Origin: a virus
Reading direction: 5' to 3' (one strand)
IMG/VR virus record: IMGVR_UViG_3300035034_000860
Location: 1-30,429 of that record
DNA length: 30,429 nt
In this document: piece by piece, positions 7,332-28,124 of the stretch
How the letters are laid out: each line of letters opens with the position of its first letter
Position numbering within the stretch: position 1 is the first letter of the stretch
Notes under the pieces: model-generated
The model's database searches: none
What the model saw: only the letters and a program-made list of their open reading frames with translations
What the model was told of the DNA's origin: nothing
Made by a program: the position numbers and the translations under genes

Positions 7332-7957
7332 TTATCACCACGCCTTACGAGGTCGTCCATCCAATCTTTATGAAAGTCATAAATAAGTTTATTATTGTCA
7401 TAGACAAACTGCTCTATCCTGGAGTTGATTGTCATATTTCCACTTCCTTCAAAAATGAAATAATCGTTTTTTTTTGTTTTGCAACAGCAAACTTTCGCGT
7501 GAACATTGACATAAACGTGTTGTGTGCTATCATTTTTGGAGCAAAAGTCACGTAGTTTTTTGGCCCAAATTTCAGGCCTTTTGGTCTGATGGAAAAAGTC
7601 AGAGATTACGAACGTTGCTTTTTTTATTCTTCCAGCTTTTATGAAATCGGTTATTGATTCGACGGTTGGCTGATTGATTCTGAATAGTGCAAGGTACATC
7701 TCTTCAATGTCGGTCTCTTCAAGTATTTGCAAAATAAGCGCGTAGGCGTTAAATTGTTTTTGTGTGATAATCCGAAATTGTTCGTTAGGTTTAGGTTTTT
7801 TGCAGAGGTCAGAAAGTGTCCTTGCTTTTATCAAGTGTATTTCATTGTTTTTTATTATTCTTTTTATTGCATTTTGTTTGACGAGGTCAGCGTTGATGTT
7901 TTCTTCAATAAGCCCGCCCCATTCTGCATTTTCCCAATCAATTTTATTTGTGTTCAT
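7322..7957 (-). CDS. PLD-like (HKD motif) protein
   Basis: The 211-residue protein carries one HKD-type motif near the C-terminus: H153, K155, D165 and GSGN at 171-174, with E182 downstream. The spacing is H-x-K-x9-D-x5-GSGN. The phospholipase D superfamily includes nucleases such as Nuc and BfiI that use one motif per monomer and dimerise, so a nuclease or DNA-binding role is plausible, but the N-terminal 140 residues are not recognised. Three adjacent cysteines (157-159) follow the HAK element. The gene starts 1 base before the methyltransferase stop and ends overlapping terS, so it is co-expressed with the packaging genes. Confidence 0.6.
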   Translation of the reverse strand: MNTNKIDWENAEWGGLIEENINADLVKQNAIKRIIKNNEIHLIKARTLSDLCKKPKPNEQFRIITQKQFNAYALILQILEETDIEEMYLALFRINQPTVESITDFIKAGRIKKATFVISDFFHQTKRPEIWAKKLRDFCSKNDSTQHVYVNVHAKVCCCKTKKNDYFIFEGSGNMTINSRIEQFVYDNNKLIYDFHKDWMDDLVRRGDKCI

Positions 7958-9441
7958 TAGAGTTTTATAATCTCAATTTCATCATCGAGTTTTTGCATTC
8001 TGTCGAGAATTACCTGACAATATTTTTCGTCAAGTTCGAGACCGTAACATTTTCTATCAAGCTGGTGACTAGCGACCATTGTCGAACCTGAACCAAGAAA
8101 GAAGTCAATAACCAACCCGCTATCTGGACAGCTTGATTTAATAACCCTTTCACAAAGAGGGAGTGGTTTTATTGTTAAGTGATTACCTTCATCTCCTTGT
8201 TTTACGTGTGAATTAAATTGCCATACACTATTAAAGTTGTCGTGAATATTATTAAAATAAGCTCTTGTTTTATAGTATTCTTTTTTGATTTCATCGTGCT
8301 CTTTTTTGATTTCATCGTAATCTTTTTTGATTTCATCGTAATCTTTGCCAAAGGCTTTATAATCTTTGCCAAAGGCTTGTAGTTTTCGATAATTTTCTTC
8401 TGTTGGAAAATTCCATTGACTTTTTGTGAAGTAATGTTTGCCCATATGATTCCCGAGTGATGCTTTCCAATTTTTTCTATCACCACACTTCTTCATCTCA
8501 TTGTCTAAATAACTTCTTATTGGTTCAAACCCCTCAAAATAATTGTTATTGTTAAACCCTTGAACCCCCATCATAATAAAAAGACATTTCTCGTCTGCTC
8601 TTGCGTAGCTTCTCCAAGATTCCTCCTTTTGCCCATGAGCACGAGGCTTTACCCACGTTATTAAATTTCTAAACGTTATTTTATTGACTTTTACTAATGG
8701 TTTTAAAATTTCTGAGTAAATGTCCATTAATGGCTCATCATTTCCCCAGCAATACCAACTCCCATTATCTTTCAAATACTCTAGTTGAAGGCTAATCCAA
8801 ATTTTATTGAACTTCAATAAATCACCATAATTTAAACTATCGTTTTCAAAGTTTTTCTTCATCCCGTAAGGGGGGTCGTTATGGGCAAGGTCTGCCAATT
8901 TGCCGTTCATAAGTCTTTCAACGTTTTCTTTTTTTGTTGAGTCTCCACAAAGCAGCCGATGAAGTTCTACGCCGTTTTTTTGAAGAGAGAACAAATCACC
9001 GACCTTTATATCTGTTTCAATTTCATCAGGTTCTTCGTAGTCATCATCTTCTACCGTCTTCGCTTTTTCATCTTGTTTGAAGTCCTCGATCTCAAGCCCC
9101 CAACTTTCAAGGTCAGGTAATTCAAAGTTCAATAATAATAGTTCTCCATCCCAATTTCCACTGGAGACGTTATCTTGAATAATAAAACGCTTCTTTTCTT
9201 CTTCTGTTAAGTTCTCCGCTTTTATCACCCAGTTTTTAGGTATCTTAGACATTCCGAGCCGCTTTATTGCTGTTAGCCGCATATTGCCACCTATGACCAT
9301 ATTATTGCTGTCTATTACAATCGGCCTAAGCTCCATCATCTTTGAAAAGTCTTTTATGGATTGTTTGAGCTTTTCAATTTGTGTTTCGTTTATGGTACGG
9401 GGATTATTCGGATTAAGTTTGAGCTTGTCAACTTCAATCAT
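7957..9441 (-). CDS. ParB-like nuclease domain fused to DNA methyltransferase (N4-C/N6-A)
   Basis: This 494-residue fusion starts with a ParB/sulfiredoxin-like domain at about residues 1-120, including RPIVIDSNNMVIGGNMRLTA. An acidic linker follows (about 127-145), then a class-beta amino-methyltransferase with catalytic DPPYG at 189-193. SAM-binding DFFLGSGST lies C-terminally at 446-454. A coiled heptad insert at about 352-387 (units like DEIKKDY) sits between the two motifs, in the region expected for target recognition. No cognate restriction gene is seen. Such enzymes in phages usually protect DNA from host restriction or mark packaging substrate. It overlaps the upstream small gene by 3 bases. 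Confidence 0.9.
   Translation of the reverse strand: MIEVDKLKLNPNNPRTINETQIEKLKQSIKDFSKMMELRPIVIDSNNMVIGGNMRLTAIKRLGMSKIPKNWVIKAENLTEEEKKRFIIQDNVSSGNWDGELLLLNFELPDLESWGLEIEDFKQDEKAKTVEDDDYEEPDEIETDIKVGDLFSLQKNGVELHRLLCGDSTKKENVERLMNGKLADLAHNDPPYGMKKNFENDSLNYGDLLKFNKIWISLQLEYLKDNGSWYCWGNDEPLMDIYSEILKPLVKVNKITFRNLITWVKPRAHGQKEESWRSYARADEKCLFIMMGVQGFNNNNYFEGFEPIRSYLDNEMKKCGDRKNWKASLGNHMGKHYFTKSQWNFPTEENYRKLQAFGKDYKAFGKDYDEIKKDYDEIKKEHDEIKKEYYKTRAYFNNIHDNFNSVWQFNSHVKQGDEGNHLTIKPLPLCERVIKSSCPDSGLVIDFFLGSGSTMVASHQLDRKCYGLELDEKYCQVILDRMQKLDDEIEIIKL
8281..8385 (-). repeat. Five 21-bp tandem units in the methyltransferase gene
   Basis: Three near-identical units (TTTTTTGATTTCATCGT plus 4 bases) at 8281, 8302 and 8323 are followed by two units of a second type (TTTGCCAAAGGCTT) at 8344 and 8365. 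Each unit is 21 bp and encodes seven residues, so copy-number change keeps frame. The coded product is a charged coiled-coil heptad array. Confidence 0.9.
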
Positions 9442-10816: not shown

Positions 10817-11014
10817 ATGGAAAAGAAAAACGATAAGATAGTAATGGGACAACTTTTGACCGTCAAAGATGTTGCGGTTATGATGGGGATTAGCTGCGGA
10901 CAGATATATGCTTTAGTCCGAGCTAAGCAGTTGCCAGCTGTAAAGATTGGTTCTTTGGTAAGATTTGACCGAAACGTATTGACAGAGTGGATTAAAGCAA
11001 ACTCGGGGGAATAA
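10817..11014 (+). CDS. Helix-turn-helix DNA-binding protein (excisionase/MerR-like, HTH_17)
   Basis: The 65-residue protein is almost entirely a winged-helix HTH_17 domain. LLTVKDVAVMMGISCGQIYA is the HTH, followed by LVRAKQLPAVKIGSLVRF (wing) and an ending D-x-x-x-LTEWIKANS. Such domains act as excisionases, but there is no integrase here, so a transcription or replication regulator is more likely. The start has AGGAGGAAAGAAGGAA directly upstream. Its stop overlaps the start of the initiator gene, so the two are coupled. It could bind the iterons in that gene or the control region at 9668-9787. Confidence 0.85.
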   Translation: MEKKNDKIVMGQLLTVKDVAVMMGISCGQIYALVRAKQLPAVKIGSLVRFDRNVLTEWIKANSGE

Positions 11015-11847
11015 TGGCAAACGGCAAGAGTTGCTTATATTTCCCTCACGACTATTCAGCAAGAAACGACCCAAAAATCCAGAGAATGAAATCAAAGATT
11101 GGATTAGTTTCTTACGCTATTTATTGGGAAATAGTTGAGTGTTTGTATGAAAATAATAATAACCTACCCACAGACTATGAACAACTTGCATATACAATAA
11201 GAGCAGAAGTAGCAGCAGTAACAGCAGTAATAGAGGACTTCAATTTGTTCACGATAGACGAAGAAGCTGGAACTTTTAGCAGCAACTCTGTTGCAAGGAG
11301 ACTTAGTATAAGGGAGGAGAGGTCAACTAAAGCCAAGAAATCTATTCTGGCAAGATGGGATAAAACGAAATACGAACGTAATACGAACGTAATACGACCG
11401 AATAACGAACGTAATACGAATGTAATACGAACGAAATACGAACGTAATACTATAAAAGAAAAGGAAAGAAAAGAAAAGGAAAGAAAAGAAAAGGAAATCT
11501 ATAAAGAAAAAGAAGCGAGCAACGGAAAAGTTGTTGCTCGCCCATGTGATGAAAACTTAATAAATTATCTTAATGAGATTTCAGGTAAGAACTACAAGTT
11601 AACATCATTGATAAAAACTTCAATAAAATCTCGGATAGATGAAGGATTTACAATCGAGCAAATGAGAGAAGCATGTAAACGACAAGTCAATAACTGCAAG
11701 GGAGACGCCAAAACTGAGACATATATGCACCCATCAACGATTTTTAGGAATGCAACAAATCTTGATAGGTGCTTGAACTTACCTATCGGTAAAAACAAAA
11801 CTGGAAGCTTAGACATCGCAGAAGACGACCCGCTTTTTGATCTGTAG
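11014..11847 (+). CDS. Replication initiator/replisome organiser (Lin1244/DnaD-like)
   Basis: The 277-residue protein has three parts. Residues about 1-100 (YFPHDYSARNDPKIQRMKSK, SYAIYWEIVECLYE) match the Lin1244/Lin1753-like N-terminal domain of phage replication proteins. Residues about 115-170 are a low-complexity K/E/R/N linker. Residues about 172-262 (LINYLNEISGKNYKLT, then EGFTIEQMREACKRQV, then MHPSTIFR) match the conserved C-terminal domain found next to DnaD-like proteins. The linker DNA carries seven 11-bp iterons, as in lambda O where the origin lies within the initiator gene. The downstream gene encodes the helicase loader. It overlaps the HTH gene by 1 base. Confidence 0.85.
   Translation: MANGKSCLYFPHDYSARNDPKIQRMKSKIGLVSYAIYWEIVECLYENNNNLPTDYEQLAYTIRAEVAAVTAVIEDFNLFTIDEEAGTFSSNSVARRLSIREERSTKAKKSILARWDKTKYERNTNVIRPNNERNTNVIRTKYERNTIKEKERKEKERKEKEIYKEKEASNGKVVARPCDENLINYLNEISGKNYKLTSLIKTSIKSRIDEGFTIEQMREACKRQVNNCKGDAKTETYMHPSTIFRNATNLDRCLNLPIGKNKTGSLDIAEDDPLFDL
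11370..11446. repeat. Seven 11-bp iterons, candidate replication origin
   Basis: Copies of ATACGAACGTA begin at 11370, 11381, 11392, 11402, 11414, 11425 and 11436; the third, fourth and fifth are variants and the fourth has an extra A. The period of 11 bp places each copy on the same face of the helix. They lie in the linker-coding part of the initiator gene. Confidence 0.8.
11451..11514 (+). other. A-rich polypurine tract next to the iterons
   Basis: From about 11454 to 11498 the plus strand is purine only, built of repeated AAAAGGAAAGAA-type units, flanked by TATAAAAG and TCTATAAAG. AT-rich, strand-asymmetric DNA beside iterons is typical of a DNA unwinding element. It codes for a lysine/glutamate linker. 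Confidence 0.6.
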
Positions 11848-11856
11848 GAGGAGAAA

Positions 11857-12513
11857 ATGAAAAAAGATAAGATTAATTACAGCGAATACCTTGAGAAGGT
11901 AAGAGCGAGAGAAACGGAGACGACAGAGTGGGAGCAGTCTAAACAATCAACGTTAATTTTTCCTGATTATTACATCAAGTCTAATTTGAAGATTCTTGAT
12001 GCTGTTCAGGAGCTGTTGAACAACGAAGAGGAAACGTCAAAGTCAATTATCTTAGCTGGTTCGGTCGGTTCAGGCAAAACAGAATTAGCGAGGATAATAG
12101 CAGCATCTGTAATCCCTGCAAGATTTCGAACAGATAAAAATTATCGTTGGTGTAATACGTTTGAGCTATGGAACGAGGTTAAAAAGATGTACGGTTCAAA
12201 TTTCGTCGATAAAGGGGAAGCAGTAAGCAAATTAATGGAGATAACGCAGTTTTATATCCTTGATGACATCGGGGCAGAGGACGAGACGCCAGCCTCTAAA
12301 AGTTTCGTTGAGCAGATGATTTTAACAGCTCATAAAAAGTTCGAACAAAACAGATTGAAACTATTGATTATCACGACAAATCTTGGAATATCTGACATTG
12401 AAAAGCGATATTCAGAACGTGTAAGGTCGAGAATTGATGAGATGAGCTATTACTTCTCATTGAGAAAACAAGACTATCGCAAAATGAAGCGACGTGGTGT
12501 AGTAGAAAAATAA
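11857..12513 (+). CDS. DnaC-like helicase loader (AAA+ ATPase)
   Basis: The 218-residue protein has Walker A GSVGSGKT at residues 68-75, Walker B FYILDDIGAE around 132-141, and sensor-1 IITTN at 171-175. An arginine-rich C-terminal segment RYSERVRSRID fits box VII/arginine finger. The size and place directly after an initiator gene match DnaC/DnaI-type loaders that deliver the host replicative helicase to the phage origin. The start has AGGAGG 7 bases upstream, 9 bases after the initiator stop. Confidence 0.92.
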   Translation: MKKDKINYSEYLEKVRARETETTEWEQSKQSTLIFPDYYIKSNLKILDAVQELLNNEEETSKSIILAGSVGSGKTELARIIAASVIPARFRTDKNYRWCNTFELWNEVKKMYGSNFVDKGEAVSKLMEITQFYILDDIGAEDETPASKSFVEQMILTAHKKFEQNRLKLLIITTNLGISDIEKRYSERVRSRIDEMSYYFSLRKQDYRKMKRRGVVEK

Positions 12514-14490: not shown

Positions 14491-15408
14491 ATGAGTACAG
14501 ATTTAACGACATCGCAAAGATTTACGGGGATGTTAGAGAAGGAGTTTAAAAGTGCAAGTGGTACAGGTCTTGACCTGACTAGTCACGAGAAGAAACTATC
14601 GCAACACTTGTTTGTCGCTTGCGATACAATGCTGAAAACCTTAGAAATGAAGAGAGCTGGAGACTCTCGAAAGCCTGCCTATACTTGGGATAATATTAAT
14701 CTGCAAGCCCTTGTGATGTCTTCAATTTCACATGTGCAAGCTGGACTTGATGCGCTGCTGCCTGCTCACATCTACCTTGTGCCATACATTGAAGGCAAAA
14801 AGTATAAACTAAATCTTCAAATTGGTTATCGTGGGCTTTTGTTTATAGCCCTCAAACATTCACTCGAACCAATCGAGGACATTAGAATTGAGTTGGTTCA
14901 CTCAAAAGATAAATATTCCGTAACTAAAAAAGACAGGAATTCAGACGTTGAGACTTATTCTTTTGAGGTTGCTAATCCTTTCGACAGAGGCGATATCATT
15001 GGAGGTTTCGGCTATATTGTCTATGAAAATAAAAGTCAAAACGTTCTCGTCAACGTTAGCCTGGAGAAGATAAAGAAAATTAGAAAGTCTGCAAAGACTC
15101 AGACCTTTTGGGATAACTGGGAAGAGGAGATGATTTATAAAACGATAGCCCGGCAGACATTGGGGAAGGTAATTCTTGACCCTGACAAAATAAACTCAAA
15201 GGCACTTCAAGAAGCACTTGAAGAGCCAACGGAGATTGAATATGTTGAAGGCAAGGTTCAGACTGTCGAAGTTGAAGCTGAAGAATTCAACGAACCTGTT
15301 GCGATTGAAGAACCAAAAGAGACCAAAGAAGCAAATGAAACCAAGACAAAAAAATCAACGCAAGCCGTTGACAATGGATATGATATGTTCGGAGAACCGA
15401 ACTTCTAA
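14491..15408 (+). CDS. recT: RecT-family single-strand annealing protein
   Basis: The 305-residue protein shows RecT landmarks: NINLQALVMSSISHVQAGLD (about residues 69-88), then KLNLQIGYRGLLFIALKH, and the C-terminal part QTFWDNWEEEMIYKTIARQT. It pairs single strands during recombination and concatemer formation. The tail after about residue 235 is low-complexity and acidic and ends DNGYDMFGEPNF, possibly a protein-protein contact. It begins 9 bases after the SMC-like gene with GGAGGAGAG as RBS, and its stop overlaps the start of the MBL-fold gene. Confidence 0.93.
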   Translation: MSTDLTTSQRFTGMLEKEFKSASGTGLDLTSHEKKLSQHLFVACDTMLKTLEMKRAGDSRKPAYTWDNINLQALVMSSISHVQAGLDALLPAHIYLVPYIEGKKYKLNLQIGYRGLLFIALKHSLEPIEDIRIELVHSKDKYSVTKKDRNSDVETYSFEVANPFDRGDIIGGFGYIVYENKSQNVLVNVSLEKIKKIRKSAKTQTFWDNWEEEMIYKTIARQTLGKVILDPDKINSKALQEALEEPTEIEYVEGKVQTVEVEAEEFNEPVAIEEPKETKEANETKTKKSTQAVDNGYDMFGEPNF

Positions 15409-16133
15409 TGAAAATAAACACTTATTTCAGCGGTTCGTCTGGTAATCTTAGCAAGTTATCAGACGGGCATACTGAAATTTTGTTTGATTGTGGTGTTTCG
15501 ATGTTAAACATCAAAAAAGCCCTCAATTTTGAGCTTACGAGGATAAAGGCAACTCTTATTACTCACGAGCACAAAGACCACTCAAAAGGTGTCAATTCTT
15601 TCGTCGAGAGAGGTATGACGTGTATATCTTCGGCGGGAACATTCGAAGCTCTCGGAATAGATTCACCTTTTGCAATCGGACTAAATAAAAAAGACGATGG
15701 AGAATATCCGAGTATAAACATTGGAACGCTGATTATTAAACCTTTTGCAATAGTTCACGATGCTGTTGAGCCTGTTGGGTTTTTTGTTTACTCGAAAATC
15801 ACGAAAGAGCGTGTTGTTTATCTTACCGATACCGGAGCAATTCCCGTCAGGTTTAATAATCTAAATTACCTGATGATTGAGATAAATTATTCACTTGAAG
15901 AGATTCAAAAAAGGTATCTTGGAGATGAAGTCGTTTTCGCTCTATATAAAAAAGTCAGGCGAACGCATCTTGAAGAGTCGCAAGTACTTGACTATCTTAA
16001 ATCAATTAATCTTGCTTATCTAAAAGAGCTTCACATTCTACATAGAAGTCAAGGAAATTCAGGAGATACAGACGTTTTAAAAAAGAAATTACTCGACATA
16101 ATACCAAGAAAAACGAAGCTTTTTTTAACGTAA
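15408..16133 (+). CDS. Metallo-beta-lactamase-fold hydrolase/nuclease (YycJ-like)
   Basis: The 241-residue protein begins MKINTYFSGSSGNLSKL. It carries the metal-binding THEHKDH motif (H53, H55, D57, H58), H117 and D141 (YLTDTG), as in the YycJ/WalJ branch of MBL-fold exonucleases. The start overlaps the recT stop (TAATG), so synthesis is coupled to RecT. RecT usually needs a 5'-3' exonuclease partner (RecE, YqaJ type); none is present, so this protein is the obvious candidate to supply resection. The fold is clear; the substrate is inferred. Confidence 0.85.
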   Translation: MKINTYFSGSSGNLSKLSDGHTEILFDCGVSMLNIKKALNFELTRIKATLITHEHKDHSKGVNSFVERGMTCISSAGTFEALGIDSPFAIGLNKKDDGEYPSINIGTLIIKPFAIVHDAVEPVGFFVYSKITKERVVYLTDTGAIPVRFNNLNYLMIEINYSLEEIQKRYLGDEVVFALYKKVRRTHLEESQVLDYLKSINLAYLKELHILHRSQGNSGDTDVLKKKLLDIIPRKTKLFLT

Positions 16134-25791: not shown

Positions 25792-28124
25792 TAGAAGCCA
25801 CCTCTAATTGATTCGCCGATTTTATTCGCTCGGTTTATTTCTGTTGGAGAAATCTTGTTTTGAATTGTTAAGATTGGAGAGAACTCCTTTGCCTGTAAGA
25901 TACTCGCAATCAGGGAAAGTTTATTTGACAGTCCAGAGAAACCTCCAACATCAACACTCGCACCGCTATTTATTGAGTTCAGAAGCGGCAGATTTTGAGC
26001 TGTAGCCGCTCTATTGACAACATACTCTCCTCTTGTAAGGTTCGCTAAAACGCTGTCTCTATTGGCAGAAACCCCCTCCGAAATGATGCCACCTGTCGCA
26101 TAACCTTTGACTTTCCCACCTTTATTGTGTCCTTGAACTTCACCGCCTTCATTGAATCCGAATAGCTTTGTTATTGTACCGAATATCCCAACAACTGCCT
26201 TCTTTATTGCCATCCTGATGAGGTCTTGTATGATTGCGTTAGTCATCTTGCGAAATGCACTTTGAAGATTATCAGCTTGGATGATTGAGTCTGATATTGA
26301 ACCAGCAATAGAGTTGGTAATACTTTCTCCAACCTCTGAGTAAAGCCCTTCAATCTTAGCGACCGTTACTTTTGTAGATTGTTCTTGTTGATATAATGCT
26401 AATTGATATTCTCTGCCGACCTCTCCGTGAATGCTTGAAACTTTCCAAAGATATTCCTCCCAAGCTTTTGCAATATTTTCAGGTGTAGACATTCCTATCC
26501 TAGCAAATTCGTTTTCTGCTGCTGTGACAGACTCAATCCGTTTGCGAAGCTTTTCTAATGTAGCTTGTCTGATACTTTCTCCAACCTCTGAGTAAAGCCC
26601 TTCAATCTTAGCGACCGTTACTTTTGTAGATTGTTCTTGTTGATATAATGCTAATTGATATTCTCTGCTGACCTCTCCGTGAATGCCTGAAACTTTCAAA
26701 AGATATTCCTCCCAAGCTTTTGCAATATTTTCAGGTGTAGACATTCCTACCTTAGCAAATTCGTTTTCTGCTGCTGTGACAGACTCAATCCGTTTGCGAA
26801 GCTCTTCTAATGTAGCTTGTCTGATAATTTCAAAATGTAATAAATCTTCTTCTGCTGCTGCTAATCGTTCCGTTTCTTTTGTCGCTACCTTGACTTGCTC
26901 CGTGTTGCCTTTCCCCGCTGATGTACTTTTCTCTATTGCGTTTCGTAGTGCCCCTAGTCCAACTTCATATTTATAAGTCTTGGCAGTCGTTCCAGTCATC
27001 GCATTCGCGAACTCTCCCCAAACGCTGACAACCTTCTGCTTGAAATAATCAAGAGACTTCGCCATCCCTGGGAATAGCCTTGTCCAGCCTGTAAGAGCAT
27101 CAAAAAGCAACTCGAACCCTAATAAAATAGCTTTTACTGTATTTATCCCTAATGATTTCAACATTTCAAACAGGAAAATTAACGCAGCGTATAAGCCCTT
27201 AACTGTTTTATCTGCACCTTTAAGAGATTCAAATTGCGCAACCATTGCCTTCAGCTCTTCTTCAAGCTGCTCTGTTGACAATTCACCTAAAGTCTCTTGA
27301 ACGTCTCCAATTGAAACGTTGAGAGCATTAAAGTAACCAACGGCATCTTTAATGAACGGTATCATTTTGCTTGCTGCCCCGTCTGTTGACCTGACTAAAC
27401 CAATGCCTAATTCTTCCTTGAGGTCTCCGAAGAGGTTTTTAAGTTGGATAGACGGTTCAATCATATGAGCGGCAGCGTTTGCAAATTTGCCTTCAACGGT
27501 GTCTAAAATAATCGCTTGAGCTTTTGCAAGTTGGTTCGTTTCTGAAAAGTTCTTTATCATCTCTTGCTGCGTGTCAGTAAATACAATCCCTACCCGTCTA
27601 AGTCTGGTAAGCCCTTCAACGGGAGATTCTAAAGCTATTCCCAAGACTGCCGTTGCTGAAGAGAGCCCCCCCGTAACAGTCGCCATATCAACTACGTTCT
27701 TAATCGCTCTCTTGAAGGTTTCACCTGTTACGTTCTGGAACTTGAGCATTGATGACATTGCCTCTTTCATTATCTCTTCATCACCATAATTCGAGACCGC
27801 TTGAAGCTCTCCAGCCATTCGTTGAAGCTGACTAGCTGTAAATCCTGCTGCTCCACCTGTTGCATTGACTTGAGCTTCTAATAGCCTAAATGAACGCTCT
27901 TGATTTCTTGCAAATTGTTCAAGGTCTTTCATTATATCAAACGCCTTCTTCATAGCAAACAGTCCAGCTGCAACGCCTGCAATAGCCCCCGCTATTTTAG
28001 CAAAGCCTTGCGACATTTTAGAAGCTGATGACTCAGCTTTCCTTACCGATTTATCAAGCTCTCTGTCAAATTTGCCTGTCTTTGCATCGATTTCAGCGTA
28101 TAATGTCCCAATGTTTTCTGCCAT
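25791..28124 (-). CDS. Tail tape measure protein
   Basis: The 777-residue protein begins like other tape measures (IGTLYAEIDAKTGKFDRELD, coiled coil, then FAKIAGAIAGVAAGLFAMKK). It has hydrophobic segments in the middle (LIFLFEMLKSL and AILLGFELLF). It ends with the typical EGGEVQGHNKGGKVKGYATG and SANRDSVLANLTRGEYVVNR region. It sets tail length and is ejected into the host at infection. Residues about 434-601 consist of two nearly identical 84-residue repeats. It overlaps the baseplate gene by 1 base and follows the tail chaperones. Confidence 0.93.
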   Translation of the reverse strand: MAENIGTLYAEIDAKTGKFDRELDKSVRKAESSASKMSQGFAKIAGAIAGVAAGLFAMKKAFDIMKDLEQFARNQERSFRLLEAQVNATGGAAGFTASQLQRMAGELQAVSNYGDEEIMKEAMSSMLKFQNVTGETFKRAIKNVVDMATVTGGLSSATAVLGIALESPVEGLTRLRRVGIVFTDTQQEMIKNFSETNQLAKAQAIILDTVEGKFANAAAHMIEPSIQLKNLFGDLKEELGIGLVRSTDGAASKMIPFIKDAVGYFNALNVSIGDVQETLGELSTEQLEEELKAMVAQFESLKGADKTVKGLYAALIFLFEMLKSLGINTVKAILLGFELLFDALTGWTRLFPGMAKSLDYFKQKVVSVWGEFANAMTGTTAKTYKYEVGLGALRNAIEKSTSAGKGNTEQVKVATKETERLAAAEEDLLHFEIIRQATLEELRKRIESVTAAENEFAKVGMSTPENIAKAWEEYLLKVSGIHGEVSREYQLALYQQEQSTKVTVAKIEGLYSEVGESIRQATLEKLRKRIESVTAAENEFARIGMSTPENIAKAWEEYLWKVSSIHGEVGREYQLALYQQEQSTKVTVAKIEGLYSEVGESITNSIAGSISDSIIQADNLQSAFRKMTNAIIQDLIRMAIKKAVVGIFGTITKLFGFNEGGEVQGHNKGGKVKGYATGGIISEGVSANRDSVLANLTRGEYVVNRAATAQNLPLLNSINSGASVDVGGFSGLSNKLSLIASILQAKEFSPILTIQNKISPTEINRANKIGESIRGGF
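26321..26824 (-). repeat. Tandem 252-bp direct duplication in the tape measure gene
   Basis: 26321-26572 and 26573-26824 differ at only about 6 positions by eye. Each encodes 84 residues (for example ESVTAAENEFA and EVGESI), so reading frame is kept. The near identity points to a recent duplication. Confidence 0.92.

Follow-up and report, generated by a model that had tools for sequence, protein, structure and literature searches.

A candidate replication origin carried as a dyad array inside the initiator gene of Lin1244- and DUF1376-type phages

An array of seven short dyads and the A/G tract that follows it very probably constitute a phage replication origin, carried inside the gene of the replication initiator, in the viral DNA studied here (IMG/VR record IMGVR_UViG_3300035034_000860; the whole stretch of 30,429 nucleotides is hereafter called the window). 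This reading is drawn from sequence comparison. The first-pass annotation had proposed a candidate origin at this place, paralleling lambda O/ori, and the proposal is supported by DNA-level conservation of the repeats, by the strand-asymmetric tract, by the position of the array in a linker and by the loader gene next to it (Table 1).

The dyads start at 11371, 11382, 11393, 11404, 11415, 11426 and 11437, the last ending at 11446, which agrees within one base with the seven 11-bp iterons previously placed at 11370-11446 inside the initiator. Tandem Repeats Finder reports 7.9 copies of period 11 (score 130, 11364-11450). The 11-bp period thus stands, and each unit, besides being a direct repeat, is a dyad: TACG-NN-CGTA, with 0 or 1 arm mismatches in each of the seven sites. 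The 11-bp self-match score of the initiator gene is 47.4, against maxima of 26.2 in 400 synonymous-codon shuffles and 10.8 in codon-order shuffles (n=400), and the pattern T[AG]CG..CG[CT]A matches only three times in the whole window, always within the array. Rfam and tRNA scans of the window gave no match.

Table 1. Features of the candidate origin and its surroundings in the window
Feature	Position	Strand	Basis
Replication initiator gene, 277 aa, Lin1244_N + linker + Phg_2220_C	11014..11847	+	Pfam, PHROG
N-terminal winged-helix domain coding part (aa 9-115), presumed iteron-binding	11038..11358	+	AlphaFold2 model
Seven 10-bp dyads at 11-bp steps, candidate initiator-binding iterons	11371..11446	+	Repeat analysis and conservation in relatives
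Strand-asymmetric A/G tract, candidate DNA-unwinding element	11451..11515	+	Period 5/15 at 11454-11497
C-terminal Phg_2220_C domain coding part, presumed partner contact; swapped among relatives	11560..11769	+	Pfam and C-terminal comparison
DnaC-like helicase loader gene, directly downstream of the initiator gene	11857..12513	+	PHROG 3277, E=1.1e-19

The assignment of the two genes as replication initiator and downstream helicase loader, already made at first reading, holds in both Pfam and PHROG. The 277-aa initiator matches PHROG 2562 and 428, both 'replication initiation protein', and in Pfam Lin1244_N (PF14297) over aa 9-92 (E=2.7e-12; 47.7 bits vs a cut-off of 25) and Phg_2220_C (PF09524) over aa 183-252 (E=2.3e-11). 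An AlphaFold2 model of the initiator, for which 30 relatives from retrieved loci were added as input, shows a confidently modelled winged-helix domain at the N-terminus (pLDDT 91-98 over aa 11-110), mostly helical with two short strands, followed by a long helix and a helical C-terminal part. The residues coded by the array, about 120-140, form a low-confidence stretch between these two folded parts, in keeping with the earlier statement that the repeats lie in the linker-coding part, and this is what a disordered linker would be expected to give. A PDB sequence search with N-terminal profiles found no relative. The loader gene also has ATP-binding/DnaI-like NCBIfam matches, below cut-off, and is followed by SbcC-like, RecT and metallo-hydrolase genes (Pfam/PHROG); an HTH_17 gene (10817) lies directly upstream of the initiator gene. 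Elsewhere in the window, a metallo-beta-lactamase-fold hydrolase (15408-16133) weakly matches anti-Pycsar Apyc1, two 21-bp tandem arrays (8268-8378) lie in a gene (7957-9441) whose product has ParB-N and DNA methylase domains, and the tape-measure gene holds a 252-bp unit in tandem duplicate (97% identity, 26320-26831), which is either a real duplication or an assembly artefact.

Pressure at the DNA level on the 11-bp unit, as the first-pass annotation supposed, is borne out by position-specific synonymous codons, co-varying arms and fixed gene positions in different frames. In ANA[LMVS], the peptide encoded by the array, GCG codes the first Ala in 62 of 67 cases and GCA the second in 67 of 67; the Ala that closes this peptide is GCT in 60 of 78. 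Where these genes encode the N-terminal domain, Ala codons are mixed (255 GCA, 208 GCC, 161 GCG and 183 GCT). The chi-square of position-fixed against background Ala codons is 461, a value that counts related sequences as independent and is not a calibrated probability. Because the Ala codon is set by its position in the unit, the constraint acts on the DNA and is not explained by the peptide; array dyads are found in all three reading frames.

The symmetry of the unit is maintained as its sequence varies. With kin sequences treated as independent, outer arm positions are complementary in 144 of 169 NNCGNNCGNN sites (shuffle mean 115, maximum 129) and inner arm positions in 142 of 169 (mean 123, maximum 137), and central positions in 9 of 169 only (mean 10.9). 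Perfect 4-bp arms with a 2-bp gap are about four times as dense in linkers as in control regions; arms 1 or 4 bp apart are enriched there as well, and they overlap these repeats. The co-varying arm types are TGCG/CGCA, TACG/CGTA (the window), AACG/CGTT, AGCG/CGCT and TCCG/CGGA (Bifidobacterium), with TACA/TGTA (a Porphyromonas phage) and TGTT/AACA (E. coli Rac ydaU) as further types at the linker. Since an array consists of copies of one unit, independent arm changes are about as many as there are types and are not given by the count of sites. The types differ from one initiator subfamily to another.

Searched as a DNA pattern of two tandem units with two arm positions free, CGAACGNAATNCGAACGNAATNCG, the array is present in 103 IMG/VR contigs. 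In 77 of the 80 loci read the pattern falls at the linker within an ORF of about 150-360 aa, always on the sense strand; all 77 proteins join one BLASTP cluster, and most of the ten that were scanned carry an N-terminal Lin1244_N or DUF1376 (YdaU) domain. Among 84,980 species genomes, 13 stretches match the two-unit pattern, with matches within initiator-like genes in Chitinophagaceae, Bifidobacterium cuniculi, Bacteroidetes and Hydrogenedentota. The match in a Gastranaerophilales genome, where the dyad centres are flipped, is likely an origin. We rejected four genome matches (L115, L120, L125 and L126) as initiator arrays: they seem unrelated to initiators, and their arms mostly fail the complement rule. 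Short ATGCGAACGTAATGCGAACGTAATGCGAA arrays with non-complementary arms lie outside long ORFs in Bacteroidales (L119, L121, L123) and Undibacterium (L126). In Bifidobacterium cuniculi, a duplicated 135-bp unit comprising linker and array gives two arrays per initiator gene (L117:2480-2720).

An array-independent search, with queries that end just short of the array, at the conserved Arg-Trp, retrieved by the N-terminus only 242 relatives of the Lin1244 type and at least 462 of the DUF1376 type from viral contigs. Reducing the best 80 of each type at about 90% DNA similarity left a non-redundant set of 93 (32 Lin1244 and 61 DUF1376), in which the linker carries a T[GA]CG..CG[CT]A dyad in 30 of 32, 52 of 61 and, in total, 82 of 93 relatives; at least one NNCGNNCGNN is present in 88 of 93. 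A typical array reads ATGCGAACGCATTGCGAACGCAATCCGAAGGCAATGCTA, and site spacings of 11 (44) and 22 (15) predominate. The first-pass annotation had named relatives that keep the protein and lose the repeats as the case that would speak against an origin; about nine in ten close relatives keep dyads, and several seeming exceptions have different dyads at the same place. The initiator gene of a Porphyromonas phage (L004), at first sight without an array, has TACA-AA-TGTA in its linker and TACA-GT-TGTA 215 bp upstream. A clear dyad was not found in relatives L193, L249, L256 and L268, and bacterial relatives from phylum-wide searches include some with other repeats or none. In the genome locus L308, a repeat-rich DUF1376 linker contains GAACGGCGTT units, one stretch being masked as N. 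Related genes also occur on the extrachromosomal elements EF62phi, pCT01 and pSWBY1, a location that fits an initiator role.

Directly after the array in the window comes the A/G tract (TATAAAAGAAAAGGAAAG..., A 0.69, G 0.22, C 0.015). An 'AT-rich tract' had been noted here; it is better described as an A/G tract, with a 5-bp period. Most relatives have a short-period, T-poor tract after the array, with a period of 5, 6 or 7. In Lin1244 phages the tract is (AAAGG)n, with period 5 (A 0.645, C 0.014); in DUF1376 phages the units are ACCAAT, ACACAAG or AACCAAG, the period is 6 or 7, and the composition is A 0.49, C 0.31. The period-5 tract is kept despite different iterons in prophage-like genes of Bacillota and Bacteroidota (L323, L325, L326, L328, L330, L334, L339), and plasmid pCT01 of Crassaminicella also carries it. 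In the DUF1376 phages Thalassomonas BA3, Vibrio 1.183 and Xanthomonas Rb1, which have other repeats, a period-7 tract is the sole shared element. Such fixed short-period tracts give a way to study, by comparison, the recognition of unwinding elements. The record of Vibrio phage 1.183.O annotates a 'CRISPR spacer' inside the DUF1376 initiator linker (L296:2861-2890), probably internal repeats misread as CRISPR.

Many relatives have a further, lone dyad upstream of the linker, at exactly 199 nt in 26 of 32 Lin1244 relatives (27 of 32 have any upstream site) and at exactly 149 nt in 29 of 61 DUF1376 relatives. These dyads fall within the winged-helix coding part, where the peptides are mostly NANAL (Lin1244) vs MR[ST]H (DUF1376); outside the initiator gene lie only 12 of 215 dyad sites in 355 kb scanned. 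The window's own initiator gene has no upstream dyad. A lone dyad 150-200 bp upstream recalls loop-forming operators, and dyads would suit a dimeric regulator, so the initiator or another phage protein might bind them as an operator that governs copy number or the expression of the replication genes, at the level of transcription or translation, with the origin elsewhere. We consider this improbable. The arrays lie more than 300 bp into the gene, away from the promoter, and are followed, as in origins, by a conserved tract of different composition; moreover, the sites in the equivalent position in lambda and pSK41 are origins (PMC5043065, PMC5703833).

By the design of the search all N-termini are related, yet C-terminal parts are related in just 10% of Lin1244 pairs and 17% of DUF1376 pairs, from which it follows that the array remains linked to the N-terminal domain as its partner domains are replaced. 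A second alternative is that the array is bound not by the initiator but by the HTH_17 protein (10817) encoded directly upstream, or by a protein of the host. The small upstream gene varies among relatives, whereas in phages of several phyla the array accompanies the N-terminus of the initiator, its dyad types varying with initiator subfamily, all of which makes another binder very unlikely. The binding by the HTH protein that the first-pass annotation proposed to test finds no backing in the few relatives checked, which have no HTH_17 gene just before the initiator, and the GC skew that it proposed as a check on the replication start only tracks gene strand here. Hardly tenable, finally, is a flexible repetitive protein linker or neutral slippage array without DNA function: the region does code a low-confidence, linker-like stretch in the AlphaFold2 model and slippage can generate tandem arrays, but neither a peptide constraint nor slippage would be expected to fix synonymous codons by position, to make the arms co-vary, to leave single dyads upstream in other frames or to keep 11- and 22-bp spacings in diverged genes, and on these data we rejected purely protein-level and slippage explanations of the array.

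If the array and tract are an origin, the N-terminal winged-helix domain would bind the dyads, perhaps with one dimer per dyad, and the loaded array, its sites about one helical turn apart, would strain the DNA so that the A/G tract opens. The C-terminal domain, together with the DnaC-like loader, would then put the host helicase on the opened strand. The further dyad that many relatives have some 200 bp upstream may provide an additional contact, looped or regulatory.

We further suggest, tentatively and at somewhat less than even confidence, that these loci represent one undescribed class of phage origin across Bacteroidota, Bacillota, Pseudomonadota, Actinomycetota and other hosts. In such a class the DUF1376/Lin1244 winged-helix domain would travel with its own coding-region dyads, whose arms co-evolve with the domain, and with a short-period, T-poor unwinding tract (the 5-mer AAAGG, or 6-/7-mers with ACC/ACA, depending on initiator class or host) that the loading machinery would read single-stranded, C-terminal partner domains being freely exchanged. 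Among the open full-text papers listed for Lin1244, DUF1376 and oriJ, we saw none that describes these sites, and in the literature searched we found no described role for Lin1244_N. The family DUF1376/YdaU is listed without a known function; both it and Lin1244_N gain a candidate function as an origin-binding domain, and for hundreds of phage and prophage genomes sequence alone indicates a place to search for the origin.

Origins inside initiator genes are already known, and three systems invite comparison. YdaU of the E. coli K-12 Rac prophage has a DUF1376 N-terminus and three TGTT-NN-AACA dyads in its linker; no others occur in the 8 kb read. The gene after it, ydaV, codes for a putative ATP-binding protein. 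YdaU differs from the phage arrays in dyad sequence and in spacing (33 and 23 bp). The Rac element has an active origin, oriJ (PMC3945230).

In lambda, inverted-repeat iterons bound by O dimers lie in the middle of the O gene. They are followed by an A+T-rich region whose purines are almost all on the same strand, and the loader P is encoded next (PMC5043065, PMC7466680). The phages described here share the inverted-repeat iterons within the initiator gene, the strand-asymmetric tract and the adjacent loader gene. They have 10-bp dyads at 11-bp steps in place of the four 19-bp iterons of lambda, their tracts have 5-, 6- or 7-bp periods, and one dyad is common to phages of several phyla. The 277-aa initiator has no match to the lambda O family at E<=0.01 (Pfam, PHROGs).

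In the pSK41 Rep protein, an N-terminal winged-helix domain binds Rep boxes in the central part of rep, the middle region, coded by ori, is a dispensable linker and the C-terminal domain is DnaD-like (PMC5703833). The 277-aa initiator has no match to RepA_N (PF06970) at E<=0.01 (Pfam). Fold matches include plasmid-initiator Rep structures, DNA-bound among them (4pql, Z 6.3; 4pt7/4pta/5kbj, Z 5.9), tied with many generic, unrelated winged-helix proteins. PHROG 1701 'DnaD-like helicase loader' matches aa 130-263 (E=1.2e-6), the C-terminus that Pfam names Phg_2220_C, and a whole-model structural alignment with DnaD reaches Z 6.2 but with an rmsd of 14.2. The phage genes resemble pSK41 RepA_N in having putative binding boxes mid-gene, coding for a linker between N- and C-terminal domains, and differ from RepA_N plasmids in iteron sequence, spacing and downstream tract, and in being phage initiators beside a DnaC-like loader. 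Between pPR9 and pSK41 the N-terminal domain and the origin region differ together while the C-terminus is kept (PMC5703833), and in the phages, too, the array goes with the N-terminal domain. The architecture is of the lambda O/ori-lambda and pSK41 RepA_N type, in sequence families with a match to neither.
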